Shown: piece by piece, positions 21,989 through 41,832 of the stretch
Layout: every line of letters starts with the position of its first letter
Position numbering within the stretch: position 1 is the stretch's first letter
Source: Porticoccaceae bacterium
GTDB lineage: Bacteria; Pseudomonadota; Gammaproteobacteria; Pseudomonadales; Porticoccaceae
Reading direction: 5' to 3'
Assembly: GCA_028822155.1 (NCBI GenBank)
Contig: JAPKEJ010000012.1
Coordinates: 1-47,584 of the forward strand
Length of the DNA stretch: 47,584 nt
Notes under the pieces: model-generated
Told to the model about the DNA's origin: nothing
Database searches by the model: none
What the model saw: the letters and a program-made list of their open reading frames with translations, nothing else
Made by a program: the position numbers and the translations under genes

Positions 21989-23191
21989 ATGGCTAATGAT
22001 TCGACTGAAGGCGATACACCAGTAATAATCTTTGATGGCTGGCGTTCTTTAATCATTGCCATCTATATGGCGCTAGTGGGTTATACGGTGATGGTTAGTG
22101 TGCCAGTACTGAGTACCGCATTAGTAGCAATGGCAGGGTTTACCGAAGTTCAGGTCGGGCGAATATGGGGCGCAGACCTAGGTGGTTTTTCGGCTGGTGC
22201 AGTACTGAGCGCTTTTTTGGTGGCTAGAGTCAACCGGCGAAAGCTGGTGTTGTTTGGCGTTCTGCTATCGGTTGTTTCCAATGCTTCATGTATGGTGCTA
22301 GTGGATTACGATCAGGTGTTGTGGTTGCGTGCTACTGCCGGTGTTGGTAGTGGAATCTTTACTGCCGTTGCAGTCGTATCTTTAGGCGGCACTACCAATC
22401 CGGTGCGTGCTTTTAATATTTTATTATTCGGTTTTGCAATTTCTACGGCGCTGGAACTGCACTTTTTTCCTCAACTGGAAATGAATCAAATTTATCTGCT
22501 ATTTATTCTGCTTGCGCTGCTTTGTGCTGTTGCTATTAAATGGTTGCCAAGTCGACCACTAAACACGGAAGAATTAGCTCACCAGAAGAGTATCGAAGAG
22601 GTGGCCGAAAATTGGCGGGTACCTGGTTACTTTCCTATTATTTGCCTAGTCGCTGTTTGTTTTACCTATATCAATATCGGCGGCTATTACACCTATATCG
22701 AACTAGCGGCGCTGGCCGATGGCGTCGCAGCGGATTGGGTTGGTGCGGTGCTAACCGCGTCTTCAGTATTTGGCGTGGTAGGCTGTATTATTGCTCTTTT
22801 CTGTTCTCGCTTTGGTTTGTTTAAGCCCTTATTTTGTTCCTTATTGCTTATGGGGACTGTTGTTGTGATGTTAGCCGGAGGCATTGGAAAAATTAACATT
22901 GTGGTCAGCCTATTCGCATTTATGGCCTTGTGGACCTTTATTGATGTTTTCCAGTCCGGGATGTTGTCCTATATGGATCGCAAGGGTTCACTGGTTGCAT
23001 TACTGCCTAGCGTGCAGGGTTTCGGTCAGTTTGTTGGCCCTAATGTGGCGGCCTCCGCTTTAGAGTTTGGCTTTGGCTATCGCGGTGTATTTCTGGTCAG
23101 TGGCGCTATGTCCATTGTGGCCATGGTGATTTATTTGGGGATCTACTTTTATATGCGTCGGCACCAGTCCTCGCCGGCACAGGCGGCCTGA
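21989..23191 (+). CDS. MFS transporter
   Basis: A 400-residue major-facilitator protein with about 12 membrane helices in two halves. After the second helix it has the loop VARVNRRKLVLFG, in the place of the family's basic loop motif. It probably imports or exports a small organic molecule across the inner membrane. It is the first gene of cassette A, 210 bases before the first flavoprotein gene, and likely moves the substrate or product of these enzymes. A small hairpin (TATAGG/CCTATA, about 23206-23224) follows the gene without a T-run. Substrate not predictable from sequence. Confidence 0.85.
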   Translation: MANDSTEGDTPVIIFDGWRSLIIAIYMALVGYTVMVSVPVLSTALVAMAGFTEVQVGRIWGADLGGFSAGAVLSAFLVARVNRRKLVLFGVLLSVVSNASCMVLVDYDQVLWLRATAGVGSGIFTAVAVVSLGGTTNPVRAFNILLFGFAISTALELHFFPQLEMNQIYLLFILLALLCAVAIKWLPSRPLNTEELAHQKSIEEVAENWRVPGYFPIICLVAVCFTYINIGGYYTYIELAALADGVAADWVGAVLTASSVFGVVGCIIALFCSRFGLFKPLFCSLLLMGTVVVMLAGGIGKINIVVSLFAFMALWTFIDVFQSGMLSYMDRKGSLVALLPSVQGFGQFVGPNVAASALEFGFGYRGVFLVSGAMSIVAMVIYLGIYFYMRRHQSSPAQAA

Positions 23192-23401
23192 ACAGCGCAA
23201 CAAGCGTATAGGTTCTCATCCTATAGGCTGCGATTGAGACAGCTACTTAGCTGAGTATACTAAAATTTAACTAATGGCTTTTGCACAATGATTTACTGTT
23301 TTTGGCTGAAACTAAAATGACTATGCCATGCTTGCCGGTTAACCCCAGCACCCAAGACATTTATATCAGCGTAGCAGGACAAATAGAGGGCTTGTTTTAG
23401 T

Positions 23402-25021
23402 ATGTCTTCCAAGCAATACGATGCAATTATTATTGGTGCCGGTCATAATGGCCTGACCAATGCGGCATTTCTAGCCAAGGCCGGACTGGATGTTTTGGTG
23501 CTGGAAAAAAATGACTATATCGGTGGCGCAACTGTCAGTCGCGAACTGTATGAAGGGTGGAAATACTCCAACTGTTCCTATGTGTGCAGTCTATTCCGGC
23601 CGGAAATTTATCAAAGTCTGGATCTTGGACGCCATGGTTTGGAAGTGGTGCCACTGCAGGGTAGTACCACCTTTAAGCAAAATGGTGACTATTTTGGTAG
23701 TTATCATCAATCCACAGTTCGCCGTCGAGAAATTGCCAGACATTCAAAAAGAGATGCCGATGCGTCCATCCGCTTTGATGCGGATTTAATGAAGTGGTGC
23801 CGTTTAATTCGTGGTTTTCTGCTAAGAACGCCGCCTAATCCCACATCATTTAAACCTCGTGACATGATGGAGTTTGCGCATTTATTAAAAAGTTTTTACA
23901 GTTTAAGCGAAGCCCAGATCTACGAATTCATCCGTTTTTTTACCATGTCTATTGCGGAGTATCTGGCAGAGTATTTTGAGAATGAAACCATACTGGCGCA
24001 TTTTTCTGGCGGCAGTATTATTGGTACCGGCCTAGGGGTTTATTCGCCAGGCACAGCCTATGTATTATTGCACCATGCCATGGGCGATGTGGATGGTAAT
24101 GTTGGTTCATGGGGGTTTGCTCGCGGTGGTATGGGTTCGGTATCCAAAGCCATTGCCTCATCATTTCAAGCAATGGGCGGGGACGTGAGAACCGGTGCAG
24201 AAGTGCAGCAGATCAACGTTAAAGGGCGTAAGGCAACAGGCGTTACTTTAGCTTCAGGTGAAGAGATTAACGCCCGTACGGTAGTCTCCAACCTTGATGC
24301 CAAACGCACCTTTTTGAATATTATGGATAAAAAAGATCTACCTGAAGCATTGGTGCACCGGGCGGAACGATTTAAAATTCGTGGATCCTCTGGCAAAGTC
24401 AACATAGCTTTAGATGGGTTGCCCGATTTTTCTGCACTACCGAAAGACTCCCCATTGACGCTAGGACATATGCATTTCACCGACACTCTTGAGCGCTTAG
24501 AGCGCGCATATGATGATTGGAAGGATGATCGTTGGTCGCAGGATCCCTACCTTGATATGGTAATCCCTAGTCAATACGACCCAACCGTAGCACCTCCAGG
24601 TAAACATATGGTTTCAGTGTTTGTGCAGTATTGTCCGGTAGAGGCAGAGGGCGGTTGGACTGATCAAAAACGCGACGCTTTCGGTGCCGCAGTGATTGAT
24701 CAAATTAGTCAATACAGCCCCAATTTTAAAGACTTAATTTTACATGCTGAAATCAGAACTCCCCGGGAGATTGAAGCGGAGGTTGGTCTGACCGAAGGTA
24801 ATATTTTCCAGGGCGAGCTGACCCTTGATCAGTTGATGTTTAATCGTCCCTTTCCTGGTTACGCCCAGTACCGAGGGCCGGTAAAAAATATGTATATGTG
24901 TAGTTCATCGACTCATCCTGGTGGTGGTGTTATGGGAGCGCCTGGAGCCAATGCAGCACGAGAAATTTTATCCGACTTGGGCCGCACTGATACAACCCCG
25001 AGGGACTTTGGCGATGACTAA
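23402..25021 (+). CDS. PYROXD2/phytoene-desaturase-like FAD oxidoreductase, type 1 (cassette A)
   Basis: A 539-residue flavoprotein of the amine-oxidase/phytoene-desaturase clan. The N-terminal FAD motif is AIIIGAGHNGLTNAAFLAKA (8-27), and a C-terminal FAD-contact block reads MCSSSTHPGGGVMGAPGANA. Inside lie segments shared with cassette B's 38704 gene, which has exactly the same length: TEGNIFQGELTLDQLMFNRP, GVYSPGTAYVLLHHAMGDVDG, IRFFTMS. The name PYROXD2-like reflects overall architecture; bacterial members have no settled function. Its stop overlaps the start of the next flavoprotein gene (ATG at 25014), so the two products are made together, possibly as a heteromer. Confidence 0.85.
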   Translation: MSSKQYDAIIIGAGHNGLTNAAFLAKAGLDVLVLEKNDYIGGATVSRELYEGWKYSNCSYVCSLFRPEIYQSLDLGRHGLEVVPLQGSTTFKQNGDYFGSYHQSTVRRREIARHSKRDADASIRFDADLMKWCRLIRGFLLRTPPNPTSFKPRDMMEFAHLLKSFYSLSEAQIYEFIRFFTMSIAEYLAEYFENETILAHFSGGSIIGTGLGVYSPGTAYVLLHHAMGDVDGNVGSWGFARGGMGSVSKAIASSFQAMGGDVRTGAEVQQINVKGRKATGVTLASGEEINARTVVSNLDAKRTFLNIMDKKDLPEALVHRAERFKIRGSSGKVNIALDGLPDFSALPKDSPLTLGHMHFTDTLERLERAYDDWKDDRWSQDPYLDMVIPSQYDPTVAPPGKHMVSVFVQYCPVEAEGGWTDQKRDAFGAAVIDQISQYSPNFKDLILHAEIRTPREIEAEVGLTEGNIFQGELTLDQLMFNRPFPGYAQYRGPVKNMYMCSSSTHPGGGVMGAPGANAAREILSDLGRTDTTPRDFGDD

Positions 25022-26591
25022 TTCCTCTGTATCAGTAGACCCCAAGTCAGTAATCATTGTTGGCGGTGGCCACAATGGTTTGGTCTGTGCTAGTTATTTA
25101 GCCAAAGCAGGCTACAGCGTTGAAATACTAGAGGCCCGCAGTACTGTAGGTGGTGGCGCCGCAACTACGCAGTTTGCCGACGGCTTTCAAGTGTCGGGTT
25201 TGGCTCATGTCTTGCACTCCTTACATCCGACAGTTTGCAAAGACTTAAGGTTAGAGAATTCCGGTTTAAAAACGGGAGCGACGATAGAGACTATCGCTTT
25301 GGATACTGATGGAAATCATTTAACTCTAGGGCTGAACGATCTCGCCGGCAGCGCGCTTTCATCGAAAGACAGAGAAGCCTACAGCGCCTTTAAGCAAGAA
25401 TTTCGCGGCTATGCATCTGCCTTAGAACCACTGATGATGAATAAGCCGCCGCGGCTTAAAAATATGGATAAAAAAGATAAATTTACTCTAGCCAAACTGG
25501 GTTTGAAGTTACGTTTTGGTTTAGGCGCGGATGCGATGAGTGAATTCTTACGGGTAGGCGGTATTAATATTTATGACGTGTTAAATGATGTCTTTGACGA
25601 CCCTAGAATCAAGGGAGCCATCGCAGCGGATGCGATTATGGGCCAGCATATGGGACCGCGAACACCGACGACAGTATTAACGTATTTACATCGACTATGG
25701 GGCGAAACTCATAGTCAGCCCAGCTTACCACCTGGTGGCATGGGGCAAGTGGCCAAGGCTCTGTTGACGGATGCTAAAGATCGTGGTGTGCAGATTCGCA
25801 CCGAGGCCACGGTAGAGGCAATTATTATTAGTGACGGAAAGGCCACTGGCGTAAAGTTGGTATCCGGCGAGCAGCTTAATGCCGCTTTGATCGTATCTAA
25901 TGCCGATGCAAAAACCACCTTTTTAAAATTGATGGATGTTGCGGAGTTGGACGCCATGTTTGCCCACCGCATTCATAAAACTCGGACTAATGGAAATGTC
26001 GCCAAGCTGCATTTTGGTCTAAACGAATTGCCCACCATCAACGGTTTGTCTACAGACCAATTGGGGCAACGTTTGTTAGTCGCGCCTAATTTGCGTTATG
26101 TGGAACATGCCTTTAATCATGCTAAATATGGTGAGTATTCCCAACAACCCATTTTAGAAATAACTATACCCAGTATTGCTGATCCATCACTTGCGCCGTC
26201 CGGGCATCATGTTATGTCGGTGTCGGCTTCGTTTGCGCCCTATGCATTAAAGGAGGGCTGGGACGAGCTGCAACGCAAAGCCTTTGTCGATACAGTAATC
26301 GCAGTGCTTGAACAGTACGTACCAGGTTTTGCTAATACCATTGTGGCTCAGGAATTATTGACGCCGGTGGATATAGAAGAGCAATACCATGTAACTGGTG
26401 GTCATTGGCACCACGGTGAGTTAGCTATAGATCAGTCGTTTATGATGCGGCCCGTGCATGGTGCGGCGCAGTACGACACGCCTATTAATGGCTTATTCCT
26501 CTGTGGCGCAGGCGCTCATCCTGGCGGTGGTATTACTGGCATTCCTGGTCGCAATGCGGCGCGACGAGTTATCGAGATGGGGAGGTCATAG
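25014..26591 (+). CDS. PYROXD2/phytoene-desaturase-like FAD oxidoreductase, type 2 (cassette A)
   Basis: I start at the ATG at 25014, which overlaps the previous stop by 8 bases (525 residues); the longer frame from 24921 runs inside the upstream gene. FAD motif: VIIVGGGHNGLVCASYLAKA (from about residue 12). The C-terminal block is FLCGAGAHPGGGITGIPGRNA. Where type 1 proteins have a NIFQGELTLDQ segment, this one has GGHWHHGELAIDQSFMMRP. The same replacement occurs in cassette B's 37148 gene, which marks a separate subfamily. Paired with the type 1 gene and followed two bases later by the GcvT-like gene, it probably acts in one enzyme system with them. Confidence 0.85.
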   Translation: MTNSSVSVDPKSVIIVGGGHNGLVCASYLAKAGYSVEILEARSTVGGGAATTQFADGFQVSGLAHVLHSLHPTVCKDLRLENSGLKTGATIETIALDTDGNHLTLGLNDLAGSALSSKDREAYSAFKQEFRGYASALEPLMMNKPPRLKNMDKKDKFTLAKLGLKLRFGLGADAMSEFLRVGGINIYDVLNDVFDDPRIKGAIAADAIMGQHMGPRTPTTVLTYLHRLWGETHSQPSLPPGGMGQVAKALLTDAKDRGVQIRTEATVEAIIISDGKATGVKLVSGEQLNAALIVSNADAKTTFLKLMDVAELDAMFAHRIHKTRTNGNVAKLHFGLNELPTINGLSTDQLGQRLLVAPNLRYVEHAFNHAKYGEYSQQPILEITIPSIADPSLAPSGHHVMSVSASFAPYALKEGWDELQRKAFVDTVIAVLEQYVPGFANTIVAQELLTPVDIEEQYHVTGGHWHHGELAIDQSFMMRPVHGAAQYDTPINGLFLCGAGAHPGGGITGIPGRNAARRVIEMGRS

Positions 26592-26593
26592 TC

Positions 26594-27811
26594 ATGTCTA
26601 AGGTTATTCAGCAAGGTCCGGCTCATGACTTTAAAAAAGTGTTACGCCACTCACCTTTTCATGACCGTATAGAGCAGCAAAGTCAGATTAAAAGCTGGTC
26701 GCCATGGAATGGTTATCAGACCGCTCGAGTGTTTGATTCTTTATCGGCGGAATATTTTGCCATCCGCAGCTCCTGTAGTGTGATGGATCTGACCCCGATG
26801 GAGAAATACCGTATCACCGGTGTTGATGCGCTTAAGTTTCTCAATCGATTGGTCACGCGTGATATTTCCAACATAAAGCCGGGTCGGGTGACTTATGTAG
26901 TGTGGTGCAACGATGAAGGCAAGGTGCTAGATGACGGCACTATTTTTCATTTACAGCAAGGCGAATATCGTCTTTGTTCTCAACACCATCAGTTGGATTG
27001 GTTGCTCATTTCTAGTTTGGGTATGGATGTCACTATTAGTGAAGAAACCCACGAAGTAGCAGCACTCTCAGTCCAGGGGCCGACCGCTTATTCGGTATTA
27101 ACTGCGGCGGGTTTTGTTGGGCTGGATAGCTTGAAACCTTTTGGTATTGTGCATACCTCCTTTAACGGCACTGACGTAACGGTGTCCCGTACGGGTTATA
27201 CCGGCGACCTCGGTTACGAGCTCTGGGTTGATCCGGCTAACGCCTTATCTATGTGGGATTGTGTGTTCAGCGTCAAAGAGCGTGGCCTTTATGATATTCG
27301 CTGTATTGGTTTGGAGGCTTTGGAAATGGTCCGTATAGAGGCCGGCTTTATTATGCCTGGCGATGATTTTAACACTGCTGAAACCACCATTAGGGCAGGC
27401 CATGACCGTTCTCCATTTGAGGTGGGCTTAGGTTGGGTTGTCAATTTTGATAAGGGACATTTTACTGGCAAACAGGCATTGCTAAAAGAGAAGGCATTAC
27501 CGATTCAGCGTCGCTTGGTCAAATTGTCAGTGGAGGGTAATAAGTCGCCTGATCAAGCTTTTATTTATGACGCTAAGAACGGCAATAATATTGGCGCGAT
27601 CAAAGTTCAGTGTTGGTCGCCAATTTTAAAAGCCAACTTGGCGCTGGCTGATATTGAATACGCTAACGGCAAGCCTCCGACTGAATTGTGGACGGAAATA
27701 TTCTACCAAAAAGAATTAGCGTGGCGAGTACAGTGGGCACGTTGCACCGTCTCGGAAACTGCCTTTTGGAGTCATTCGCGCCGTTCGGCTACACCGCCGC
27801 CAGCCTATTAA
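26594..27811 (+). CDS. GcvT-like folate-dependent aminomethyl-/methyltransferase family protein (cassette A)
   Basis: A 405-residue relative of glycine-cleavage T protein. That family binds tetrahydrofolate and takes up one-carbon groups from amines, or from sulfur or oxygen substrates (DmdA and LigM/DesA are relatives). Seen here: VMDLTPMEKYRITG, LDDGTIFHL with the conserved acidic residues, RTGYTGDLGYELWV near residue 205, and VRIEAGFIMPG. The C-terminus ends in WSHSRRSATPPPAY. No flavin domain is fused; the flavoproteins are separate genes directly upstream. It starts 2 bases after the type 2 flavoprotein stop behind GGAGG, so translation is tightly linked. A demethylase role with the flavoproteins is an inference. 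Confidence 0.85.
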   Translation: MSKVIQQGPAHDFKKVLRHSPFHDRIEQQSQIKSWSPWNGYQTARVFDSLSAEYFAIRSSCSVMDLTPMEKYRITGVDALKFLNRLVTRDISNIKPGRVTYVVWCNDEGKVLDDGTIFHLQQGEYRLCSQHHQLDWLLISSLGMDVTISEETHEVAALSVQGPTAYSVLTAAGFVGLDSLKPFGIVHTSFNGTDVTVSRTGYTGDLGYELWVDPANALSMWDCVFSVKERGLYDIRCIGLEALEMVRIEAGFIMPGDDFNTAETTIRAGHDRSPFEVGLGWVVNFDKGHFTGKQALLKEKALPIQRRLVKLSVEGNKSPDQAFIYDAKNGNNIGAIKVQCWSPILKANLALADIEYANGKPPTELWTEIFYQKELAWRVQWARCTVSETAFWSHSRRSATPPPAY

Positions 27812-27834
27812 TTTTTCCATAGTAGAGCGATTGT

Positions 27835-28428
27835 ATGAAAAGCATAACAGCGATTGTAGATTCCGTTTATTTGGGTGCCCCCAATATTGATGATCTTGCC
27901 AAGCAGCCTTGCGCATTATTAGAGATGACGCTTGATGGTATTGTCGGCGATCGTCATAGCGGTCAATCTCGGCAAGCTTGGGGGCATGATAAGCAACCGG
28001 CAGGAACGGTGCGTCGCAACGAAAGACTTTGGTCGGCGATGTCTGTTGAAGAGTTGGCAGAGATCAACCAGTCAATGGATCTAAATCGGCCTGTGACGGC
28101 TGCAGACCTTGGCGTCAATTTGTGTTTTAAAGGTATTGTTAATCTGTCCCAGTTGGCCAAAGGCAGTACCTTAGCATTTCCCTCCGGCGCCGAATTAATC
28201 GTTGAAGAATATAACCCCCCCTGTCTTGATATGGGAGAGAAGCTGGCTGGCCTCTATACGGACAAGGCCGGTCAGCCAATTACCACTACCGCGTTTTCTC
28301 AAGCAGCAAAGTTTACACGTGGCGTGGTGGGCGTGGTAGAAGTCGGCGGTGTGATTAAGGCGGGTGATGAAGTTGTGGTCACACCTTATCAACCCCCTAT
28401 ATGGATAGCACGGCTTAGCAAAAACTAA
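27835..28428 (+). CDS. MOSC-domain protein (cassette A)
   Basis: A 197-residue stand-alone MOSC protein of the YiiM-like size class. MOSC domains bind molybdenum cofactor or carry sulfur through a conserved cysteine; here that is Cys130 in EEYNPPCLDMG. GIVGDRHSGQSRQAWG (residues 35-50) is the conserved N-terminal block. The gene follows the GcvT-like gene by 23 bases. Its role could be reduction of an N-hydroxylated compound, as in YiiM/mARC relatives, or cofactor delivery to the molybdenum hydroxylase encoded at 44407-47170. A truncated relative lies after the cassette B GcvT gene. Confidence 0.87.
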   Translation: MKSITAIVDSVYLGAPNIDDLAKQPCALLEMTLDGIVGDRHSGQSRQAWGHDKQPAGTVRRNERLWSAMSVEELAEINQSMDLNRPVTAADLGVNLCFKGIVNLSQLAKGSTLAFPSGAELIVEEYNPPCLDMGEKLAGLYTDKAGQPITTTAFSQAAKFTRGVVGVVEVGGVIKAGDEVVVTPYQPPIWIARLSKN

Positions 28429-28526
28429 TTCTATTAATCTCGAGGCCAGCTCCGATTATTATATGACATTTATCGGTAGGCCTGGTGCTTGTGCTGCCGG
28501 TGATATGTTGCGACGAGTCAATGTAA

Positions 28527-28577
28527 CCCCAGGTTATGCTCCGAGCTAATCCAGTCGATCCGCAGATTAAATGCTCA
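28527..28577 (+). pseudogene. Decayed coding remnant R2, related to R1
   Basis: In one frame these 51 bases read PQVMLRANPVDPQIKCS. The 21650-21700 segment reads the same with PQVRLRGNPVDP, a stop, then IKYS. Forty-two of 51 bases are identical, and four of the nine differences are silent third-position changes, as expected for once-coding DNA. The frame is closed by a TAA just upstream (28524) and similarity fades downstream. The rest of the 283 bases between MOSC and the next flavoprotein gene shows no gene that I can support. Confidence 0.45.
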
Positions 28578-28711
28578 CTGGCAAGGGGCTACCGATATAG
28601 CATAGGGACTAGAACCTATCTATGAGTATAGGGTAGGATGTTCATCGCAGTATCATTTGGAATAAAGGCCCTAGTCCTTTCATGTAGATAACCGTTATTT
28701 GTGGAAAACTT

Positions 28712-29989
28712 ATGATCTTACCCCAGTCACATACCAGTTCTTACTACGCTGCCAGCGCTAATCAGCATGTCGATTATGCGCCGCTCAAAGGTGCCGTAAG
28801 GGCTGATGTCTGTGTTATTGGTGCTGGATTTACTGGGATATCGACGGCTCTCCATCTTGCTGAGCGTGGTTTTAATGTTCATGTTGTTGAGGCCAATAAA
28901 GTTGGTTGGGGTGCCTCTGGACGCAATGGTGGGCAGATGATTGGCGGAATTTCTGGTGACAGTAAAATGGCATCTGCTCTTGGTGTAGAGGGCGAGCGAA
29001 TACTGTGGGATATGGGCTGGGCAGGGCATGAGATTATTCGTGAACGGGTTTCAACCTACGCTATAGACTGTGATTTAAAGTCTGGTTATGTTGATGTGGC
29101 CATAAAGCCTCGACATGTCAGAGATTTAGAAACCTATCATCGGTTGCTACAAAAATATGATTTTCCACATGACTATCAGATGCTGTCTAAGCATGAGACG
29201 CAAGACCTTCTAGGTACAGACGCCTACATTGGTGCTTTGAGAAATGATGGCAATGGGCATGTGCATCCGCTCAATTTATGTCTTGGCGAGGCCGCCGCCG
29301 CCGTGTCCTTGGGAGCAACCATCTACGAGCAGTCACCAGTGCTTGAAATTAAGCGTGGTGAAAAGGCCACGGTGATCACAGAGGAGGGCTCAGTCACCGC
29401 CGATTTTGTCGTCCTTGCTGGCAACGCGTATCACTTTCTCGAACCAAAATTGCGTGGCATTTTGTTTCCCGTTAATAGTTTTATTATCGGTTCTGAACCG
29501 CTCTCTGATGCACTGGTCGATCAGATAAACCCTCAAGATCTGGCCGTTTGTGACCCCAACTACATCTTGGAGTACTTTCGTCTGAGTGCAGATAAGCGGT
29601 TACTATTTGGCGGGCGTTTTACCTACTTCGGCAGCGATCCAGAGGTTATTAAACAAAACTTAATACCAAGAATGCTTAAAATATATCCTCAGTTGGCCAA
29701 TACTAAATTTGATTATGGTTGGGGTGGGACCATAGGTGTCTCGGCTAATCGGGTGCCTCAGATGGGTAGGCTAGCCCCCAATATTATCTACTCGCAGGGT
29801 TACTCTGGGCATGGTGTAAATGTTACCCATTTAGCCGGCCAAATTATGGCAGATACCGTTTGTGGTACCCTTGAGCGTTTCGATGTATTTGCTAAGATCA
29901 AACCCTTGTGGATTCCAGGTCAACACCTGTTTCGCAACCAAATGGTTGCCCTTGGTATGATGTACTATAATTTAGTTGATCGGCTCTAG
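28712..29989 (+). CDS. DadA/PuuB-type FAD-dependent amine or amino-acid oxidoreductase
   Basis: A 425-residue D-amino-acid-oxidase-fold flavoprotein, closest in look to gamma-glutamylputrescine oxidase (PuuB) and its relatives, which oxidise a C-N bond of secondary or primary amines. FAD motif: VCVIGAGFTGISTALHLAERG (33-53, shown in part: VIGAGFTGIS), then GASGRNGGQMIGG, and the C-terminal block YSQGYSGHGVNVTHLAG. The N-terminus HTSSYYAASAN is typical of the PuuB group. The last 30 residues extend beyond the usual fold. Neighbours include an SpdH-like dehydrogenase and, further on, a polyamine-type ABC permease, so an amine substrate is a fair inference. Confidence 0.87.
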   Translation: MILPQSHTSSYYAASANQHVDYAPLKGAVRADVCVIGAGFTGISTALHLAERGFNVHVVEANKVGWGASGRNGGQMIGGISGDSKMASALGVEGERILWDMGWAGHEIIRERVSTYAIDCDLKSGYVDVAIKPRHVRDLETYHRLLQKYDFPHDYQMLSKHETQDLLGTDAYIGALRNDGNGHVHPLNLCLGEAAAAVSLGATIYEQSPVLEIKRGEKATVITEEGSVTADFVVLAGNAYHFLEPKLRGILFPVNSFIIGSEPLSDALVDQINPQDLAVCDPNYILEYFRLSADKRLLFGGRFTYFGSDPEVIKQNLIPRMLKIYPQLANTKFDYGWGGTIGVSANRVPQMGRLAPNIIYSQGYSGHGVNVTHLAGQIMADTVCGTLERFDVFAKIKPLWIPGQHLFRNQMVALGMMYYNLVDRL

Positions 29990-30024: not shown

Positions 30025-30705
30025 GTGGCTATAGATTTACAAGTACTTCTCAATAAACCGTACATTAATCAGTGGAAATTATTCTTTCTGGGCTCAGGCC
30101 TCATCAGCCTCAGCACTCTGCTTACCGCAGTCCAGTTAGACCTTTCTTCTGCTGAGTCCATTTCAAGCATGATTAAGTATACCGTGCGCTGTGCGGTACC
30201 CTTTCTTTTTCTTGTGTTTATGGCGTCCTCACTGCAGGTTGTTTGGCCTAGTCTTTTTAGTCGGTGGTTAGTTCGAAATCGAAAATTTCTGGGGCTTTGT
30301 TTTGCCTCAGCTATGGCTTGGCAGGCCTTATTTATTTTGTGGCTTGTCAATATTCACAGTCACTATTATGTCGAAGAGGTCTACAACCTGAGTGATACCA
30401 TTGAGGGTGTGGGTGGGTATCTTTTTTTGTTGGCCATGGTAGCCACGTCTTTTGAATTTGGTCGTAGTCGCTTGACCCTCAAGCAGTGGCGTAATCTGCA
30501 TAAGGCTGGTATCTATTATCTTTGGGCGTACGCCTGGAGCGTCTATTGGTATGAGCTTTATTACTACGGGACCCTTGAAATTTATGACTATGTATTTTAC
30601 TGGTTTGGTTTTGGTGCCTGGGGTTTGCGAATGTTGGCTTGGAGTAAAAAAGAACAAAAAAAATCGCTCAATAAGGATAAGACGAAATTGAAATCTTCCA
30701 CGTGA
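30025..30705 (+). CDS. Multi-spanning membrane protein, ferric-reductase-like (haem) type
   Basis: A 226-residue protein with five or six membrane helices. The layout and the segment LTLKQWRNLHKAGIYYLW recall the ferric-reductase transmembrane domain (YedZ/MsrQ type), where His residues hold haem b. Candidate ligands are the His pair in NIHSHYYVEE and the His in RNLHKAG. Translation starts at GTG (30025) behind GTGGAG. It lies between two flavoenzyme genes, and the Tat-exported one follows after 13 bases. A role as quinone-linked electron outlet for that enzyme is plausible but unproven. The C-terminal tail is Lys-rich and cytoplasmic. Confidence 0.68.
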   Translation: MAIDLQVLLNKPYINQWKLFFLGSGLISLSTLLTAVQLDLSSAESISSMIKYTVRCAVPFLFLVFMASSLQVVWPSLFSRWLVRNRKFLGLCFASAMAWQALFILWLVNIHSHYYVEEVYNLSDTIEGVGGYLFLLAMVATSFEFGRSRLTLKQWRNLHKAGIYYLWAYAWSVYWYELYYYGTLEIYDYVFYWFGFGAWGLRMLAWSKKEQKKSLNKDKTKLKSST

Positions 30706-33177: not shown

Positions 33178-33588
33178 ATGATAACGGGACGATGTGAGTG
33201 TGCTCGAGTTGGTTTTCAGATTGATGGAGAGATCAATGACTATAGTCATTGCCATTGCAGTCAGTGCCGACGTCTGCATGGAGCTGCCTTTGCAACCTTC
33301 GCTGGGGTTGAGCGCAGTGTTTTTTCCTATACCACCGGTGAGTCAGATATTACTTATTACGCATCATCCAAGAGCCACACTCGGCTATTCTGCAAGCATT
33401 GCGGTTCAAATATATTGGTTGCGTTAACGTCAGAACCCGATGCTCTGTATGTGGCAATGGGTGTGATCGATAACAATCCTAAATTAACTCCAGGCTACCA
33501 TATTTTTATGGGCTCAAAGGCCCCATGGTATGACTTCGATAATGGTGGGGAGCAGTACGATACTTTCCCCGCTGAGTCATTAATATAA
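33178..33588 (+). CDS. GFA/CENP-V family zinc protein
   Basis: A 136-residue protein of the glutathione-dependent formaldehyde-activating (GFA) family. Zinc-binding cysteines follow the family pattern: Cys6 and Cys8 (GRCECAR), Cys25, Cys27 and Cys30 (HCHCSQCRRLHG), and Cys72 and Cys75 (FCKHCGSN). GFA was named for spontaneous glutathione-formaldehyde adduct formation, and many members have other or unknown roles. Beside flavin amine oxidases and GcvT-like demethylases, trapping of released formaldehyde is an attractive reading. A strong AGGAGG site precedes the start. Confidence 0.88.
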   Translation: MITGRCECARVGFQIDGEINDYSHCHCSQCRRLHGAAFATFAGVERSVFSYTTGESDITYYASSKSHTRLFCKHCGSNILVALTSEPDALYVAMGVIDNNPKLTPGYHIFMGSKAPWYDFDNGGEQYDTFPAESLI

Positions 33589-33612: not shown

Positions 33613-34143
33613 ATGACACACAAATCTCATGAAGGCGTTTCGCGCTACGCCAGGGCGATTAGAATTTTTGGTTTTGTTAGTTGGAGCTCTCTAATGCTCA
33701 TTATTGGTATCGTGAGTGATACTTACGTAGGCACCACTAAAGCTTATGCTGATGGGCATGTAATGAATTCACCGGCTATTGTGCGCTTGGATAAGACGCG
33801 ATTAGGGGGGCAAAATTTAAGTGATTTTGCGCCTTATGAGCCAGGCAGGGGTAATCTTATTGCACGAGGACATGATTACTACTACAGCGACGACGAAAAT
33901 CTCGGTATCGGTGTCTGGGAAAGTAAGCCAGGCGAGATGACCTATAAAGATCTTGGTTATGATGAGTTGATGATCGTACTTGATGGCAGTTTAGTCATGA
34001 CCAGCAGCGATGGTGAGCCTGAAGTATTTGGGTCCGGTGAAGGTTTAGTCTTGCCTCAGGGATGGAGTGGCACACTGGCTGTTCCTGAGGGCGGCGTCCG
34101 GAAAATATGGGTGTCATATATGGGCGGTAAAAAGGGTAAATAA
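33613..34143 (+). CDS. Membrane-anchored or exported cupin-domain protein (EutQ-like)
   Basis: A 176-residue protein with one N-terminal hydrophobic segment (about 17-37), either an uncleaved anchor or a signal peptide ending near TKAYADG. The C-terminal half (about 75-170) is a cupin: GIGVWESKPGEMTYKDLGYDELMIVLDGS recalls EutQ-type cupins (shown in part: WESKPGEMTYKDLGYDE), followed by LVLPQGWSG and WVSYMG. The metal-binding histidines of classical cupins are mostly missing; Glu and Asp may serve, or it may be non-catalytic. It lies 24 bases after the GFA gene behind AGGAGG and is probably co-transcribed. Confidence 0.78.
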   Translation: MTHKSHEGVSRYARAIRIFGFVSWSSLMLIIGIVSDTYVGTTKAYADGHVMNSPAIVRLDKTRLGGQNLSDFAPYEPGRGNLIARGHDYYYSDDENLGIGVWESKPGEMTYKDLGYDELMIVLDGSLVMTSSDGEPEVFGSGEGLVLPQGWSGTLAVPEGGVRKIWVSYMGGKKGK

Positions 34144-34202
34144 ACTCACTATTTCAATAAAAATACTATCTTTGAGTACTCAGAGAAATAAAAGGAAAAA
34201 CT

Positions 34203-36176: not shown

Positions 36177-36205
36177 GTAAACCTTTATTGTTTAAGGAGA
36201 TATAA

Positions 36206-37057
36206 GTGACGAATTCACCCGTGATGAAAATTGGGCCGTATCCTCTGAATACCCTGCAGCTATTAAAGCTGGTGGTCTACTCCTTATTGATCTTTAATTT
36301 TTTCCTATACATCCGTGAAGACTTGTTGATTTCTAGTCATACGCTGCGCAGCGGCAGTACATTTCTAGAGATAACGCGGTCCTTTGCAACGACGATTGAT
36401 GAAAGTGCTTGGATTACTCTATTGCTGCTATTTGAGCTTGAAACCTACCTGCTCTCCGATGAGCCGTTATCGCGCAGCAAGGTTCTGCTAATGCAGGCTA
36501 TTCGGTTGATATGCTATGTGTCCTTAGCACACACGCTTTATGCTTGGTTTGGTAACTTGATGGAGCTTTATGCATCGGTCCCCATTGAGGGGATTACTAG
36601 TCTCTGCCAGATGATCGATGAAGATGTGTCTTACGCTTTTAATTTGGTTTACACCGAAATTGATCAAAGTAATTGTGCAAGTCTATCTACTGCTACTCAG
36701 TTTTTTTATGTCGATCCACCAACCTTTCTTATTGTTGAGGATCACGCTGGATTAGTGATTGAAAAACAGTTAGCTTGGATTGATTTGTTTGAGGCGATTA
36801 CATGGTTAGTGATTCTTTTCACTATTGAGGTAGCTGTATGGTTGCAAGACCGCAATATTGGCGAAGGTCTTATTTTTAAAGTGTTGAGGACTGCTAAACT
36901 ATGCCTGTATTCTTTGCTCTGGGCTGCCATTGCGTACTGGATTTACCGAGGCCATTATATGTTTGCCTGGGATGAGTTTGTTTGGATTGCTGGCTTTACC
37001 GCTATTGAAATGAATATGGTCGAATGGCGTAAGGAAATCAACGAAGCTGAGGTATAG
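36206..37057 (+). CDS. Multi-spanning membrane protein, unknown function
   Basis: A 283-residue inner-membrane protein with six probable helices and a periplasmic or cytoplasmic loop of about 60 residues in the middle (VPIEGITSLCQMIDEDVS onward), which includes two cysteines. Translation begins at GTG behind AAGGAGA. The C-terminal segment YWIYRGHYMFAWDEFVW and the tail EMNMVEWRKEI recur in a decayed copy at 41701-41832, so this gene belongs to the unit that was duplicated. I do not recognise the family. It lies 90 bases upstream of cassette B's flavoproteins. Confidence 0.75.
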   Translation: MTNSPVMKIGPYPLNTLQLLKLVVYSLLIFNFFLYIREDLLISSHTLRSGSTFLEITRSFATTIDESAWITLLLLFELETYLLSDEPLSRSKVLLMQAIRLICYVSLAHTLYAWFGNLMELYASVPIEGITSLCQMIDEDVSYAFNLVYTEIDQSNCASLSTATQFFYVDPPTFLIVEDHAGLVIEKQLAWIDLFEAITWLVILFTIEVAVWLQDRNIGEGLIFKVLRTAKLCLYSLLWAAIAYWIYRGHYMFAWDEFVWIAGFTAIEMNMVEWRKEINEAEV

Positions 37058-37147
37058 TATAACGACACTCAAAGCGTATAGGCGTGGTGGTGCTTAAGGT
37101 AAGCTGCCAATAATCTCTCAACATCAAATACCCTAGGAATCTAACAG

Positions 37148-38707
37148 TTGGACGATTACGATAATATCATTATAGGTGCTGGTCATAACGGCCTAATCTG
37201 TGCGACTTACCTCGCCCAAAAGGGACATTCTGTGTTGCTACTAGAGTCATCCAGCCATGTCGGTGGATTAGCGGCGACCCGAGAATTTCATCCTGGCTAC
37301 AAAGTATCTGTGGCGCATAGCCTCAGCCATTTTTCTGAAACTGTAGCCAGCGAATTAAATCTTTCTGCCCATGGATTTAATCCTAGCGGTGAGACTCTGG
37401 AGACGATTGGCCTGAATTTACAGGGAACCCCTGTCGTGTTATCCGGTGATCAAATAAGCGGAGTCAGCACTGATGATGCTGAAAAATACTCAGAGTACCT
37501 TGCCGTACTTAAACGTTTTGCGAAGGTATTAAAACCGTTTTGGCTTAAAACAATGCCGCGTATTGGCCATAATACGGTATCTGATCTCATGACCTTTGGT
37601 CATCTTGGGCTGAATTTACGTATGCTTGGCAAGAAAGATATGGGCGAGTTTATGCGCGTTGCTACTCTGCCGGCGCGAGATTTAATGGACGAGAATTTCG
37701 ATAACGATCTTTTAAAAGCAGTCCTTAGTTGGGATGGGTTAGTGGGATCAAAAATGGCACCACGCTCACCTAATGCGACCGTTCTCAACATGCTATACCG
37801 GATGAGTGGTAAAGATCACGGTGCTCACTCGCTGCCAGAAGGTGGTATTGAGAGTTTAATTAATGCTTTAAAGATGGCAGCAGTCAGTGCTGGCGTAGAG
37901 ATCCAGACAAATGCTGCGGTCAGTCGTATTATTGTGGATGGCGATGAGAATGGCCTAAAAGCGACTGGTGTTGAACTTGCCGATGGCCGAAAAATCTCGG
38001 CGATCCGCGTCATATCCTCAGCCGATCCGAAGCGCACATTTTTAAACTTGGTGGGCGCTAAAAATCTAGAGATTGAATTTACTAACCGAATTAATAGACT
38101 GCGATGCGATGGCTATGTCGCCAAATTACATCTTGCACTAAGTGATCTACCGATGTTTACGGGTGTTGAAAAACCCTGTGGTCGAATGATCATTGCTCCC
38201 GAGATGGATGCCATTGAGTTTGCCTTTGATCACGCCAAGTATGGAGAGTATTCAGATTCTCCAGTGATGGAAATATTACTCCCCAGCGTAAAAGACTCAA
38301 CCTTGGCGCCAAAGGGCTGCCATGTTCTGTCGGCTCATGTCATGTATATCCCCCATTCGCTCAAAACTGGCTGGACAGATCATGCTAAAGAGGCGCTTTA
38401 TCAAACGTTAGTTCAGACCCTTGAGAGGTATGCTCCGGGTATAACGAAGCATATCGTTCACGGTGAGCTAATGACGCCAGCTGATCTAGAACAGACCTTT
38501 AATGTCACCGGTGGTCATTGGCATCACACTGAATTGGCGATGGATCAGATGTTGATGATGCGGCCAACCTATGAGGCGGGGCAGTACAGTTCGCCTGTTA
38601 AAGGCTTGTATTTATGTGGCGCAGGAAGTCACCCCGGTGGTGGGCTCATGGGTGGTCCAGGCCATAATGCGGCTAAAGAAATCCTACGGGCGGAAAAGAA
38701 ACGATGA
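37148..38707 (+). CDS. PYROXD2/phytoene-desaturase-like FAD oxidoreductase, type 2 (cassette B)
   Basis: A 519-residue flavoprotein. It starts at TTG (37148), since the FAD motif IIIGAGHNGLICATYLAQ begins only six residues later and no nearer ATG exists. It belongs with the cassette A 25014 protein, not with its immediate neighbour: both carry VTGGHWHH-x-ELA-x-DQ and LCGAG-x-HPGGG near the C-terminus and the segment YGEYS. In cassette B the type 2 gene precedes type 1, the reverse of cassette A. Its stop overlaps the next start (ATGA), which couples their translation. Substrate unknown; likely the same reaction class as cassette A. Confidence 0.85.
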   Translation: MDDYDNIIIGAGHNGLICATYLAQKGHSVLLLESSSHVGGLAATREFHPGYKVSVAHSLSHFSETVASELNLSAHGFNPSGETLETIGLNLQGTPVVLSGDQISGVSTDDAEKYSEYLAVLKRFAKVLKPFWLKTMPRIGHNTVSDLMTFGHLGLNLRMLGKKDMGEFMRVATLPARDLMDENFDNDLLKAVLSWDGLVGSKMAPRSPNATVLNMLYRMSGKDHGAHSLPEGGIESLINALKMAAVSAGVEIQTNAAVSRIIVDGDENGLKATGVELADGRKISAIRVISSADPKRTFLNLVGAKNLEIEFTNRINRLRCDGYVAKLHLALSDLPMFTGVEKPCGRMIIAPEMDAIEFAFDHAKYGEYSDSPVMEILLPSVKDSTLAPKGCHVLSAHVMYIPHSLKTGWTDHAKEALYQTLVQTLERYAPGITKHIVHGELMTPADLEQTFNVTGGHWHHTELAMDQMLMMRPTYEAGQYSSPVKGLYLCGAGSHPGGGLMGGPGHNAAKEILRAEKKR

Positions 38708-40323
38708 AAAAGTATGACGCGATTATCATCGGTGCTGGGCACAATGGACTGACTAATGCAGCCTATCTGGCAAAAGCTGGGCTTGATGTGCTAGTGGTCG
38801 AAAAAAATGAATACATTGGAGGCGCCGCTGTCACCCGCGAGATGCATGATGGTTGGTTCTATTCAAGCTGTTCCTATGTCTGCAGTATGATGCGTCAGGC
38901 GATCCATCGAGATCTTAATCTGACCAAGCATGGTTTGGTACTCGTCCCATATTTAGGCACAGTAGTCTTTGCTGATAATGGCGATACCATGACCAGCTAT
39001 CACTCTGAAGAGGCCGAGTATAACCAGCTTCGACGCCGCTCACCGCATGATGCGGATGCGATGTTTAGGTTTCAGGCAGACCTTGGCCGCTATGCCCAGT
39101 TAATTCGAAAAACCTTACTTCGAACGCCTCCCGATCCAACATCATTCAGACCCAGAGATATTCGCGAGCTGCTATGGCTGGCAAAACAATTCTGGTCACT
39201 GGGGGAAAAAGAACTGTATGAATACATTCGGTTTTTCACCATGAGTGCTGCTGATTTTCTCGACGATTATTTTGAAGATGATCTTATTAAAGCGGCTATG
39301 GCTAGTCCGGGTGTTATTGGCACGGCTTTAGGGGTGTACTCTCCAGGATCGGCCTATGTGTTACTCCATCATGTCATGGGTGATGTCGACGGCAACGTTG
39401 GCGCTTGGGGGCTGGCAAGAGGCGGTATGGGGGCGATTTCTAATGCTATTGCGGGTTCTGTAAAAGAGCACGGCGGTGAAATTCGTACCCATGCGGGCGT
39501 CGACAAAATTCTCGTCAAAAACGGTAAGGCCACAGGCGTAGTGCTTGAAAATGGTGATGAGTTATATGCCAATATTGTTGTCTCCAATATGGATGCAAAA
39601 CGTACTTTTACCCAGTGCATGGACAAAGATGATCTACCTCCTGGAATTTATGAAAAAGCGAAGAACTTTAAAATTCGTGGCTCATCAGGCAAGGTTAATA
39701 TTGCCCTATCAGGACTGCCTAAATTTAATAATGTTGCGGACAATCGCTATATTAATCGGGGTGGACAAGGTTTTGTTGGCTCGATGGAAACCTTGGAGCG
39801 GGCCTATGATTGCTGGAAGCATGGACGCTGGTCAGATGACCCATTCATAGAGTCGGTGATACCGTCTGCCTGGGATCCGACCGTAGCGCCACCGGGACAG
39901 CACTGGATGTCTAACTTTATTCAATACTGCCCACCACAACTCGCTGATGGTCCTTGGACCCCAGAGAAGCGGGACGCCTTTGGTCAGACAGTTGTTGATA
40001 AAATAGAGCGTTATAGTCCAGGCTTTAAAGATCTGATTGTTCATATGGAGGTACGCACGCCTCATGAAATTGAAGCTGAGGTTGGTCTCACTGAGGGCAA
40101 TATCTTTCAGGGTGAATTAACGATTGATCAATTACTGTTTAACCGTCCATTCCCAGGGTATGCCCAATATCGAATGCCGATTAAAAATATGTACATGTGT
40201 GGTTCATCCACCCATCCGGGAGGAGGAGTGTCCTCAGCCTGCGGAGCCAATGCGGCGCGAGAAATATTGATCGACTTAAAGCGGCCTAATACGGTGCCAG
40301 AGGATGATTTTTATGATGAATAG
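38704..40323 (+). CDS. PYROXD2/phytoene-desaturase-like FAD oxidoreductase, type 1 (cassette B)
   Basis: A 539-residue flavoprotein, identical in length to the cassette A 23402 protein and alike throughout: AIIIGAGHNGLTNAAYLAKA, LLRTPPDPTSFRPRDI, GVYSPGSAYVLLHHVMGDVD, KFKIRGSSGKVNIALSGLP (KN-FKIRGSSGK here), TEGNIFQGELTIDQLLFNRP and YMCGSSTHPGGGVSSACGANA. It overlaps the type 2 gene upstream by four bases and the GcvT-like gene downstream by about ten, so the three form one translational unit. It is probably a subunit of the same enzyme as the type 2 protein. Confidence 0.85.
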   Translation: MKKYDAIIIGAGHNGLTNAAYLAKAGLDVLVVEKNEYIGGAAVTREMHDGWFYSSCSYVCSMMRQAIHRDLNLTKHGLVLVPYLGTVVFADNGDTMTSYHSEEAEYNQLRRRSPHDADAMFRFQADLGRYAQLIRKTLLRTPPDPTSFRPRDIRELLWLAKQFWSLGEKELYEYIRFFTMSAADFLDDYFEDDLIKAAMASPGVIGTALGVYSPGSAYVLLHHVMGDVDGNVGAWGLARGGMGAISNAIAGSVKEHGGEIRTHAGVDKILVKNGKATGVVLENGDELYANIVVSNMDAKRTFTQCMDKDDLPPGIYEKAKNFKIRGSSGKVNIALSGLPKFNNVADNRYINRGGQGFVGSMETLERAYDCWKHGRWSDDPFIESVIPSAWDPTVAPPGQHWMSNFIQYCPPQLADGPWTPEKRDAFGQTVVDKIERYSPGFKDLIVHMEVRTPHEIEAEVGLTEGNIFQGELTIDQLLFNRPFPGYAQYRMPIKNMYMCGSSTHPGGGVSSACGANAAREILIDLKRPNTVPEDDFYDE

Positions 40324-41533
40324 TCAGACAGAATCCAGTGATCCCTTTGCGGGTGAGCGTCTAAAAGAAAGCCCTTTTCACCCTCGTCAGGCAGCGCTTA
40401 ACTTGCGCAATGCTTGGTCCAGTTGGAACGGGTATAAGTTTGCCGATTATTATTATGACGAGGAATACGAATATTTCTGTGTGCGCAATAGCTGCGCCAC
40501 TTATGATATTTGCCCAATGCAAAAGTACATTATTAGTGGTGTTGATGCAGAGGCAATGTTAGATCGAATGGTGACTCGTGATATCACCAAGCTCAAAGAA
40601 AATAGAGTGACCTATGTCTGTTGGTGTACGGACGAGGGCAGATTAATTGATGACGGTACAATTTTCAAATTGGGTACTGATAAATTTTTACTGACCTGCG
40701 GTAGTCCATCGCTTGCTTGGTTAAGGAAGAGTGCTTTTGGGTTCAATCAGATGAAGATTGAAGATGCCTCAGACACTATTGCAGGTCTATCATTTCAAGG
40801 CCCAACGACCTGTGAAGTACTGAAGAGAATGGGCCTTGAAGGTATCGATCAACTCAAGCCTTTTTGCATTGCGCATTTTTCCTTTGCCGGTAGTGAAGAT
40901 AAGCCTCTAATGGTGTCGCGCACCGGTTTCACTGGCGATTTAGGTTATGAACTATGGATTAACCCGTCATTGGCCTTATCATTCTGGGATGCACTTTATG
41001 CGGCTGGGGAGGATTACGGTATTCAGCCTTATGGGGAGGCTGCGACAAACATGGCGCGATTGGAGGCAGGTTTTATCATGCCTGGAATGGAGTTTAATGA
41101 AGCATTAAAAACCATTCACTACCATTATGATCAAACGCCTTTTGAATTGAGTTTGGATTGGCTAGTAGATTTCAAAAAACCACATTTTAATGGCCGTACA
41201 GCCCTAATGAGTGCTCGAGATACCGGCTCCGAATATACGCTAATTAAGTTGGATATCGAGGGTAACAAACCTGCTGAGGAATCCTTTTTGTATGCCGATG
41301 AAGGCTGTATCAAAGAAATTGGTTATGTCACCTCGGCGATGTGGTCGCCCGTTGTAAAGGCCAATATTGCTTTGGCAATGGTCAAGACAGAAGCAATTAA
41401 AGACAGTATTTGGGCCGAAATTTATTATACGAAAGAGCTTCGTCACCATAGTAAAGTGGCCAAGTGCAAAGTACAAAGCAAGCCGTTTTGGGCGCCAGAT
41501 CGGGCTAGGGCAACTCCTCCCGCCGCTTTTTAG
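40313..41533 (+). CDS. GcvT-like folate-dependent aminomethyl-/methyltransferase family protein (cassette B)
   Basis: A relative of the cassette A 26594 protein with the same landmarks: YDICPMQKYIISGVDA, LIDDGTIFKLG, RTGFTGDLGYELWINP, ARLEAGFIMPGMEF, and the C-terminal FWAPDRARATPPAAF. Three in-frame ATGs (40304, 40313, 40316) lie close to the end of the upstream gene; I choose 40313 because AGAGG sits about nine bases upstream, giving 406 residues. Translation is coupled to the type 1 flavoprotein by overlap. Tetrahydrofolate binding follows from the family; the methyl or methylene donor is unknown. The MOSC gene that follows in cassette A is only a fragment here. Confidence 0.85.
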   Translation: MMNSQTESSDPFAGERLKESPFHPRQAALNLRNAWSSWNGYKFADYYYDEEYEYFCVRNSCATYDICPMQKYIISGVDAEAMLDRMVTRDITKLKENRVTYVCWCTDEGRLIDDGTIFKLGTDKFLLTCGSPSLAWLRKSAFGFNQMKIEDASDTIAGLSFQGPTTCEVLKRMGLEGIDQLKPFCIAHFSFAGSEDKPLMVSRTGFTGDLGYELWINPSLALSFWDALYAAGEDYGIQPYGEAATNMARLEAGFIMPGMEFNEALKTIHYHYDQTPFELSLDWLVDFKKPHFNGRTALMSARDTGSEYTLIKLDIEGNKPAEESFLYADEGCIKEIGYVTSAMWSPVVKANIALAMVKTEAIKDSIWAEIYYTKELRHHSKVAKCKVQSKPFWAPDRARATPPAAF

Positions 41534-41559
41534 ATACCCTTGAGAAATAAAAGATAGAG

Positions 41560-41700
41560 ATGAAGAGTTGTAAGGGTACTTTGGATTCGGTTTGTCTTGG
41601 TATTTCGGAGGATGATCTCGGTAAGGAGCCACTTTTATCACTCAAGCCGCAACTATCCGGATTTGTTGGCGATCCTCATGGTTCACTATTTTGTTACTGA
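41560..41700 (+). pseudogene. Truncated MOSC gene (N-terminal fragment)
   Basis: A 46-codon frame begins MKSCKGTLDSVCLGISEDDL and reaches SGFVGDPHGSLF before a TGA. It aligns with the N-terminus of the intact MOSC protein at 27835 (MKSITAIVDSVYLG, then DGIVGDRHSG) and sits in the same place, 26 bases after a GcvT-like gene. The MOSC core and the catalytic cysteine region are gone, so it cannot be functional as a MOSC protein. Sequence after the TGA belongs to another gene remnant. Confidence 0.75.
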
Positions 41701-41832
41701 ATCTATCGACTACATTATATGTTTGTCTGGGATGAGTTTGTATGGATTGCCGGCCTCGTTGCCATTGAAATGGATGTTGGGGAGTGGCGTAATGAAAATA
41801 GAGTGTCAGAAAAAGAAGGCCACCTTAAATAA
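41701..41832 (+). pseudogene. C-terminal remnant of the 36206-type membrane protein gene
   Basis: In the same frame as the MOSC fragment, directly after its TGA, the sequence reads IYRLHYMFVWDEFVWIAG, then AIEMDVGEW and a short tail to a TAA. It matches the last 35 residues of the 36206 protein (IYRGHYMFAWDEFVWIAG, AIEMNMVEW). The TGA itself aligns with the Trp of YWIYR, a TGG-to-TGA change. The MOSC head therefore joins a membrane-protein tail, which is the scar of a deletion. Bases 41833-41957 hold nothing recognisable. Confidence 0.75.

Follow-up and report, generated by a model that had tools for sequence, protein, structure and literature searches.

Paired CrtO-like flavoproteins and a GcvT-like protein form a recurrent gene cassette in a Porticoccaceae bacterium: a candidate oxidative N-demethylase

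Organization of the cassettes

The window analyzed here is a stretch of 47,584 nucleotides from a Porticoccaceae bacterium (contig JAPKEJ010000012.1 of assembly GCA_028822155.1), which corresponds to contig C40 of a draft genome (G000) of 2.44 Mb and 89% completeness. It harbors two cassettes of three tightly packed genes each, encoding two different CrtO-like flavin adenine dinucleotide (FAD) proteins, here termed FPA and FPB, and a protein related to the aminomethyltransferase GcvT, and these three may together constitute a tetrahydrofolate (THF)-linked demethylase. Cassette 1 (23402-27811) has the order FPA1-FPB1-GcvT1. FPA1 (23402..25021; Pfam Amino_oxidase, 2.6e-15) overlaps FPB1 (25014..26591, with 25014 as the likely ATG; Amino_oxidase, 1.8e-21), and GcvT1 (26594..27811; GCV_T, 5.2e-56) starts 2 bases past the end of FPB1. 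The order of the flavoproteins is swapped in cassette 2 (37148-41533), where FPB2 (37148..38707; Amino_oxidase, 2e-17) shares 4 bases with FPA2 (38704..40323; Amino_oxidase, 3.1e-14) and FPA2 also overlaps GcvT2 (40304..41533; GCV_T, 3.8e-54; GCV_T_C, 9.4e-10). All six genes lie on the plus strand. The open reading frames (ORFs) named in an earlier note on this DNA were all found in the window by ORF listing and Pfam, and its statement that the flavin and folate parts are separate polypeptides holds, as they occupy distinct ORFs here and were matched as separate neighbours in 33 sampled windows from other genomes.

The two cassettes are 63% (FPA), 43% (FPB) and 45% (GcvT) identical, whereas FPA and FPB share only 32-34% with each other (32% for FPA1 and FPB1). 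This indicates a duplication of the whole trio. Two cassettes had been reported before; both are real, but the count was too low, as a third one lies on contig C53 of the same genome (L083 5794-10194). Its proteins are 69% (FPA), 48% (FPB) and 49% (GcvT) identical to those of cassette 1.

Distribution and co-divergence of the trio

A scan with GcvT2 yielded 74 related loci, among which the closest named relatives by identity are Porticoccaceae/SAR92 draft genomes. The full cassette is present in 64/74, and the other 10 begin inside or just before it; five additional loci were covered by the same comparison. Since this set was selected by GcvT, genomes were also sampled independently of the cassette. 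Among 194 genomes of the order, FPA (E up to 1e-150) was found in 12 genomes at 22 places, 19 of them outside the own genome, and GcvT2 (E up to 1e-70) in 13 genomes at 22 places outside the own one; two GcvT places of G383 (L116, L117), at which the contig ends, were left out. FPA-like matches occurred in 15 of 274 genomes of the class, namely the own genome, three at 57-62% identity and 11 at only 35-40%. No cassette-type GcvT was found in these 11 class-sample genomes; G214 and G047 carry GcvT matches of 34-35%, on contigs other than that of the flavoprotein. The phylum sample of 398 genomes contained FPA in 11, including the own genome, with GcvT at cassette spacing in 10/10 others. FPA, GcvT and a second flavoprotein were therefore adjacent at 32/32 FPA places (19+3+10; E up to 1e-150) in 24 genomes outside the own one, and the co-occurrence on which the earlier note had staked its proposal was indeed observed. 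FPA2 is the most conserved member of the trio, with matches of 77-97% identity beside relatives of GcvT2.

The second flavoprotein is clearly FPB at 31 of the 32 places. At the remaining one (L115), where the contig ends within its gene, it matches FPA and FPB about equally (136 vs 124 bits). For the second flavoprotein of a divergent trio found via GcvT (L114) the scores are 239 bits against FPB2 and 233 bits against FPA2. With A, B and G standing for FPA, FPB and GcvT, the gene orders ABG and BAG are common and GAB is rare. FPA (E up to 1e-150) was not found in the same-genus genome G429 nor in five same-family genomes of the order sample, and the cassette thus looks like an accessory module.

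Pairwise distances were compared for 99 cassettes, L065 with its 3-residue GcvT being left out. The correlations were 0.90 for FPA and FPB, 0.97 for FPA and GcvT and 0.91 for FPB and GcvT, and none of 1000 permutations reached these values (highest 0.24). Correlations of this kind are also given by co-inherited operons, so that the co-divergence shows joint inheritance and not contact. Taken with the constant adjacency, FPA, FPB and GcvT very probably act as one functional unit.

A possible two-gene form was observed on a Shinella sumterensis plasmid (L104 8995-11746), where a single CrtO-like protein lies beside a GcvT gene, with genes for an ABC transporter, a CoA ligase and 3-keto-5-aminohexanoate cleavage nearby. 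Five other single flavoproteins examined on plasmids have no annotated adjacent GcvT.

The GcvT-like proteins

GcvT1 and GcvT2 contain a GCV_T domain (190 and 184 bits, above the cut-off of 25.6), and GcvT1 aligned to Thermotoga maritima GcvT (1woo) with E 1.4e-43, so that its sequence suggests a THF-binding protein of the aminomethyltransferase type. The best curated NCBIfam model for both is trimethylamine N-oxide (TMAO) demethylase (228 and 244 bits; cut-off 1100 missed), of which they match the GcvT part alone. Neither NCBIfam GcvT model was reached (211/204 bits, cut-off 300; 155/146 bits, cut-off 235.85), and the cut-offs were also missed for DmdA (135/125 bits; 410), LigM and DesA (52-57 bits; 580 and 800) and SoxA.

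The earlier note had made its proposal depend on folate-site residues, and by alignment to 1woo these are present. D117, aligned with T. maritima D96, is found in 98/99 cassettes and E216, aligned with E195, in 99/99; we take D96 and E195 to be folate-site residues. R252 and E254 of the cassette GcvT are likewise present in 99/99. For SesA, THF contacts have been predicted at D95 and E189 (PMC5547118).

In a tree of GcvT proteins (n=98, one row with X being left out), 98/98 cassette proteins fall into one clade (support 0.95) that excludes nine further members of the GcvT family, of which eight come from the same genome and one from a Shinella sumterensis plasmid. L001, which gives the best GCV_T match in the genome, lies outside this clade. 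BAG cassettes form a clade of their own with a support of only 0.44. The 2.4 Mb draft (G000) contains 13 GcvT-domain matches, five of them in open frames of 805-1032 amino acids that are possibly fused demethylases.

The flavoproteins

CrtO is the best NCBIfam model for FPA and FPB, but with 253-280 bits (280 for FPA1) its cut-off of 1000 was missed, as was that of CrtI (113-133 bits; cut-off 238). An N-terminal GxGxxG motif is conserved in both proteins. In FPA, G10, G12 and G15 are present in 97/99 cassettes (2 gaps); in FPB, G10 and G12 occur in 99/99 and G15 in 94/99. Structure models of FPA2 and FPB2 (predicted local distance difference test, pLDDT, 87.0 and 88.7) were compared with Foldseek. 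The best match for both was a gamma-carotene desaturase (top entry for FPB2, 4rep), and further matches included phytoene desaturase, Rab GDI and nicotine, putrescine and monoamine oxidases. FPA and FPB are thus CrtO-like proteins with a predicted desaturase/amine-oxidase fold. Since the matches span desaturases as well as amine oxidases, the fold cannot choose between desaturation and amine oxidation.

In other marine bacteria single flavoproteins with 34-37% identity to FPA2 were seen near cassettes (L036, L043, L046, L055, L058, L063 and L066). In six of the seven, the EGNIFQG of FPA is replaced by GGDIFHG.

Genes surrounding the cassettes

Most of the identities that the earlier note had assigned to the genes around cassettes 1 and 2 were upheld. 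All of the following are on the plus strand unless stated otherwise. Beside cassette 1 lies a gene for an MFS transporter (21989..23191; MFS_1, 2.1e-15), which may serve uptake but is not a constant part, a homologue being present at 6/74 related loci. Cassette 1 is followed by a MOSC protein (27835..28428; 2.3e-10; 29/74 related loci, 1/33 sampled windows) and an amine oxidase of the DAO family (28712..29989; 2.2e-69). For the latter the family stands, but AmaA/PuuB-like is the safer name than PuuB-like, as the best NCBIfam model is the L-pipecolate oxidase AmaA with 196 bits (cut-off 600). PuuB was rejected as a constant partner, since it is found at 39/74 related loci, yet in 1/33 sampled windows compared with 2/33 controls. 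The membrane protein TM1 (30025..30705), without Pfam match and present at 22/74 related loci, is possibly an electron-transfer partner and precedes an SpdH-like spermidine dehydrogenase (30719..32647), which matches solved SpdH (PDB 7d9f) with 2.8e-149. A GFA-family protein (33178..33588; 3.7e-27) may handle formaldehyde. Upstream of cassette 2 a second conserved membrane protein without Pfam match, TM2 (36206..37057), has homologues at 41/74 related loci. The molybdenum hydroxylase, too, was confirmed, with a 2Fe-2S subunit (44389-44913; Fer2_2, 1.5e-31) and a large subunit (44906-47170; MoCoBD_1, 1.2e-33). The end of a gene for a PotI/PotC-type permease, cut by the window end, lies on the minus strand (47225..47581; NCBIfam PotI, 153 bits for the part present; BPD_transp_1, 3.1e-09). 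SpdH, the DAO oxidase and this permease provide the link to amines within the window itself. The trio is constant, whereas in the sampled windows PuuB and MOSC each occur in 1/33, and there was a single weak match for GFA and none for the large subunit of the molybdenum hydroxylase.

Two further observations concern this region. A DUF3604 protein (34203-36176; 9e-156) is encoded between the cassettes with a cupin and the GFA gene and is retained in some SAR92 relatives. A ferredoxin reductase of the Rieske-oxygenase type and a 2Fe-2S ferredoxin are encoded at 20036-21602; no Rieske oxygenase was matched on the window contig, while the other contigs of this genome contain 8 Rieske matches.

To describe the neighbourhood more generally, genes were counted in 33 cassette windows and 33 random windows from ten of these genomes. 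Initially 40 random controls were drawn, but 7 that overlapped one another or a cassette window were removed; among these, scored genes were present in L152 (Pot and TetR, next to cassette window L128) and L151 (AspH and two MMSDH-like genes). One control that was kept (L162) shares 1.9 kb with cassette window L121. FPB was scored in 33/33 cassette windows, a figure that is weak alone because FPA and FPB cross-match, and the comparison of fetched places given above is the better basis. Pot-type binding proteins were found in 14/33 cassette windows and 0/33 controls, PotB/C in 11/33 and 0/33, PotA in 14/33 and 4/33, and TetR regulators in 20/33 and 0/33. GbcA-like Rieske oxygenases (9/33 vs 0/33), class III aminotransferases (10/33 vs 3/33) and glutamylputrescine-synthetase-like glutamine synthetases (GS; 5/33 vs 0/33) were also more frequent near cassettes. 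An AraC-type regulator (HTH_18) with a long N-terminal part without matched family was observed at L078 (10447-11217) and its relatives, at 43/74 related loci; it has no match in the window.

Cassette 3 is flanked by potA/B/F-like genes on one side and by genes for a Rieske oxygenase, GS, a DAO oxidase, a glutamine amidotransferase, an aminotransferase and agmatinase on the other. Its PotF-like binding protein matches solved PotF (PDB) with E 5.5e-98, and the aminotransferase and agmatinase exceed the cut-offs of their models. The best models for the Rieske oxygenase and GS are GbcA (278 bits; cut-off 670) and gamma-glutamylputrescine synthetase (215 bits; cut-off 650). Seven plasmid records contain FPA with 54% identity or more, and the six examined (H2 was left out) all carry the trio together with Rieske, Pot-type proteins and an aminotransferase. 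Genes for an amino-acid ABC transporter and for 3-keto-5-aminohexanoate cleavage lie near the Parasedimentitalea cassette. In G338 (L119), fghA and frmA lie on one side of the cassette together with an ACT-domain gene, purU and the gene for a regulator resembling QhpR (170 bits; cut-off 250), and purU is also near the cassettes of L066 and L073. The own genome contains folD. The earlier note had left open whether a C-N or a C-O bond is cleaved; Pot-type uptake, Rieske oxygenases, aminotransferases and GS in the neighbourhood favour C-N cleavage over methoxylated aromatics.

Proposed reaction and alternative readings

From these data we propose that FPA, FPB and GcvT are the subunits of a heteromeric oxidative N-demethylase that uses flavin and folate and may act on N-methylated polyamines or comparable omega-N-methyl amines, an assignment from sequence that we consider moderately probable. 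An N-methylated amine would be bound by the FPA/FPB pair and its N-CH3 group oxidized via FAD to a methylene-iminium, as in the fused dimethylglycine and sarcosine dehydrogenases, in which flavin oxidation is followed by transfer of the one-carbon unit to THF. The GcvT subunit would then pass this unit to THF, so that 5,10-methylene-THF is formed; the amine that has lost its methyl group may enter polyamine or amine catabolism by glutamylation, transamination or oxidation. Substrates could be taken up via Pot-type transporters and stray formaldehyde dealt with by GFA or FrmA. GbcA opens glycine betaine as a Rieske oxygenase, and for a quaternary substrate the neighbouring GbcA-like enzymes might remove the first methyl group. 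That the trio is a THF-linked demethylase of some kind is the slightly firmer part of this proposal and appears fairly likely. The polyamine-like substrate is tentative and less likely than not. PotF-like uptake together with glutamylation genes points to a di- or polyamine skeleton, but some cassettes have genes for aminotransferases and for 3-keto-5-aminohexanoate cleavage nearby, which makes omega-N-methyl amino acids possible as well, and our estimate for polyamines was lowered slightly because half of the Pot-type binding proteins are loosely PotD-like.

Several observations weigh against this proposal. Among the 14 Pot-type binding proteins, seven have the PotF-like protein of cassette 3 as their best match. 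The other seven, which are all of rhizobial type, best match a Shinella protein that in turn reaches only 86 bits with its top model, PotD (cut-off 582). Rieske oxygenases are present in only 9 of the 33 sampled windows, seven windows (L114, L115, L119, L121, L122, L143 and L145) contain no other scored gene besides the trio, and no enrichment was seen for aldehyde dehydrogenase (6 vs 2), PuuB (1 vs 2) or SpdH (0 vs 0). The neighbour statistics are also optimistic, because the references came partly from cassette 3 and the plasmids and several windows stem from one rhizobial genus. FrmA and FghA were rejected as general neighbours, as control windows carry both too, and purU was not above the cut-off in the own 89%-complete genome. 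Within the window there is no match to a Rieske oxygenase, glutamylputrescine-synthetase-like GS or TetR, and its Pot-type genes amount to the end of one permease gene. The second flavoprotein of GAB cassettes is about equidistant from FPA and FPB, and a carotenoid desaturase is the top fold match of both flavoproteins.

This last match, together with CrtO as best NCBIfam model, would suit carotenoid or isoprenoid desaturases that stand beside a GcvT gene by chance. We regard this as barely credible, and a carotenoid enzyme identity was rejected on cut-offs and gene context: every score is far under the CrtO and CrtI cut-offs and GcvT is adjacent at 32/32 places. In addition, house-finch PYROXD2, which is most similar to CrtO, is reported to have shown no carotenoid activity in cell culture (PMC12010460). 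The amine genes around the cassettes and the amine oxidases among the fold matches would equally fit a flavoprotein pair oxidizing unmethylated polyamines or amines, with the GcvT-like protein as a folate-binding or structural, YgfZ-like partner without net one-carbon transfer. This appears unlikely, given that GcvT2 scores more than 200 bits with GcvT and TMAO-demethylase models, that the folate Asp and Glu are conserved and that GcvT and FPA co-diverge with r 0.97.

The trio could also act on methoxy or methylenedioxy groups as an O-demethylase or demethylenase like LigM, DesA or BrdA. GcvT-like THF enzymes are known for such reactions (PMC5547118), and the MFS protein weakly matches an aromatic-acid symporter (24 bits; cut-off 419). 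This is nevertheless very unlikely, as the LigM and DesA scores lie far below their cut-offs, the neighbours are amine genes, and purified BrdA is reported to be active with THF alone (PMC5547118). The closest alternative keeps the chemistry and replaces the polyamine by an omega-N-methyl amino-acid-type compound or a betaine; within the weight given to a demethylase it takes a substantial share, although on its own it is somewhat unlikely. Candidate substrates are N6-methyllysines, gamma-butyrobetaine, valerobetaine and trimethylhomoserine from betaine lipids; for homarine nothing usable was found among the literature listed. GbcA-like Rieske and class III aminotransferase neighbours, the genes near the Parasedimentitalea cassette and the reported association of PYROXD2 with methyllysine speak for such substrates, whereas the PotF-like binding protein and the glutamylputrescine-synthetase-like and agmatinase genes of cassette 3 and SpdH in the window speak for polyamines.

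Relation to known systems

The proposed N-demethylase resembles the fused FAD-GcvT demethylases (dimethylglycine oxidase/dehydrogenase, sarcosine dehydrogenase and the alpha subunit of heterotetrameric sarcosine oxidase), whose GcvT parts are matched by GcvT1 and GcvT2 in the PDB. These enzymes combine both functions in one polypeptide, whereas the cassette encodes a separate GcvT and paired, different CrtO-type flavoproteins. TMAO demethylase (PDB 9q59, 9q5a) has a similar GcvT part, but its N-terminal part is absent from GcvT1 and GcvT2. DmdA, LigM, DesA and BrdA are likewise GcvT-like THF enzymes that take one-carbon groups off nutrients; for DmdA, LigM and DesA we know of no flavoprotein partner. 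BrdA was rejected as a precedent for the trio, since the sections consulted describe a GcvT-like enzyme alone, without the flavoprotein partner found in the cassette (PMC5547118). SAR11_1303/SAR11_1304 pair an aminomethyltransferase gene with a separate flavin oxidase, but there the flavoprotein is a single one of the monomeric-sarcosine-oxidase type (PMC3160333). CrtO and CrtI are alike in fold and profile, but the cassette proteins score far under their cut-offs and differ in partners and neighbours. Fused FAD-GcvT demethylases are known, and the split form with a CrtO-type pair would represent a novel arrangement of an established enzyme type. No description of the FPA-FPB-GcvT trio was found among the titles and abstract starts of the open-licence literature listed, a scope that leaves out most subscription papers and all bioRxiv preprints.

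Human PYROXD2 is also a CrtO-like flavoprotein, and its shared closeness to CrtO suggests kinship with FPA and FPB, although it is a single animal protein. In one cohort a PYROXD2 missense variant accounted for 50% of the N6-methyllysine variance in blood and tracked dimethyllysine and N-methylpipecolate (PMC8109053). PYROXD2 variants are more broadly reported to track N6-methyllysines, N-methylpipecolate and methylamines (PMC8109053; PMC9730628). If the presumed kinship holds, these data would agree with an N-demethylase.

If the proposal is correct, genes annotated as "NAD(P)/FAD-dependent oxidoreductase" and "aminomethyltransferase family protein" would gain a reaction, THF-linked amine demethylation, and bacteria of sea and soil would have an extra carbon and nitrogen route for methylated amines. 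Diatom silica contains methylated long-chain polyamines. A bolder reading, to which we give little weight, is that the cassette is the missing enzyme of marine bacteria for N-methylated polyamines, including these long-chain ones, and that PYROXD2 acts in the same family on N6-methyllysine in animals. A correct proposal would also provide a testable link to human PYROXD2, and if the bolder reading were true, an orphan human enzyme would gain a reaction.

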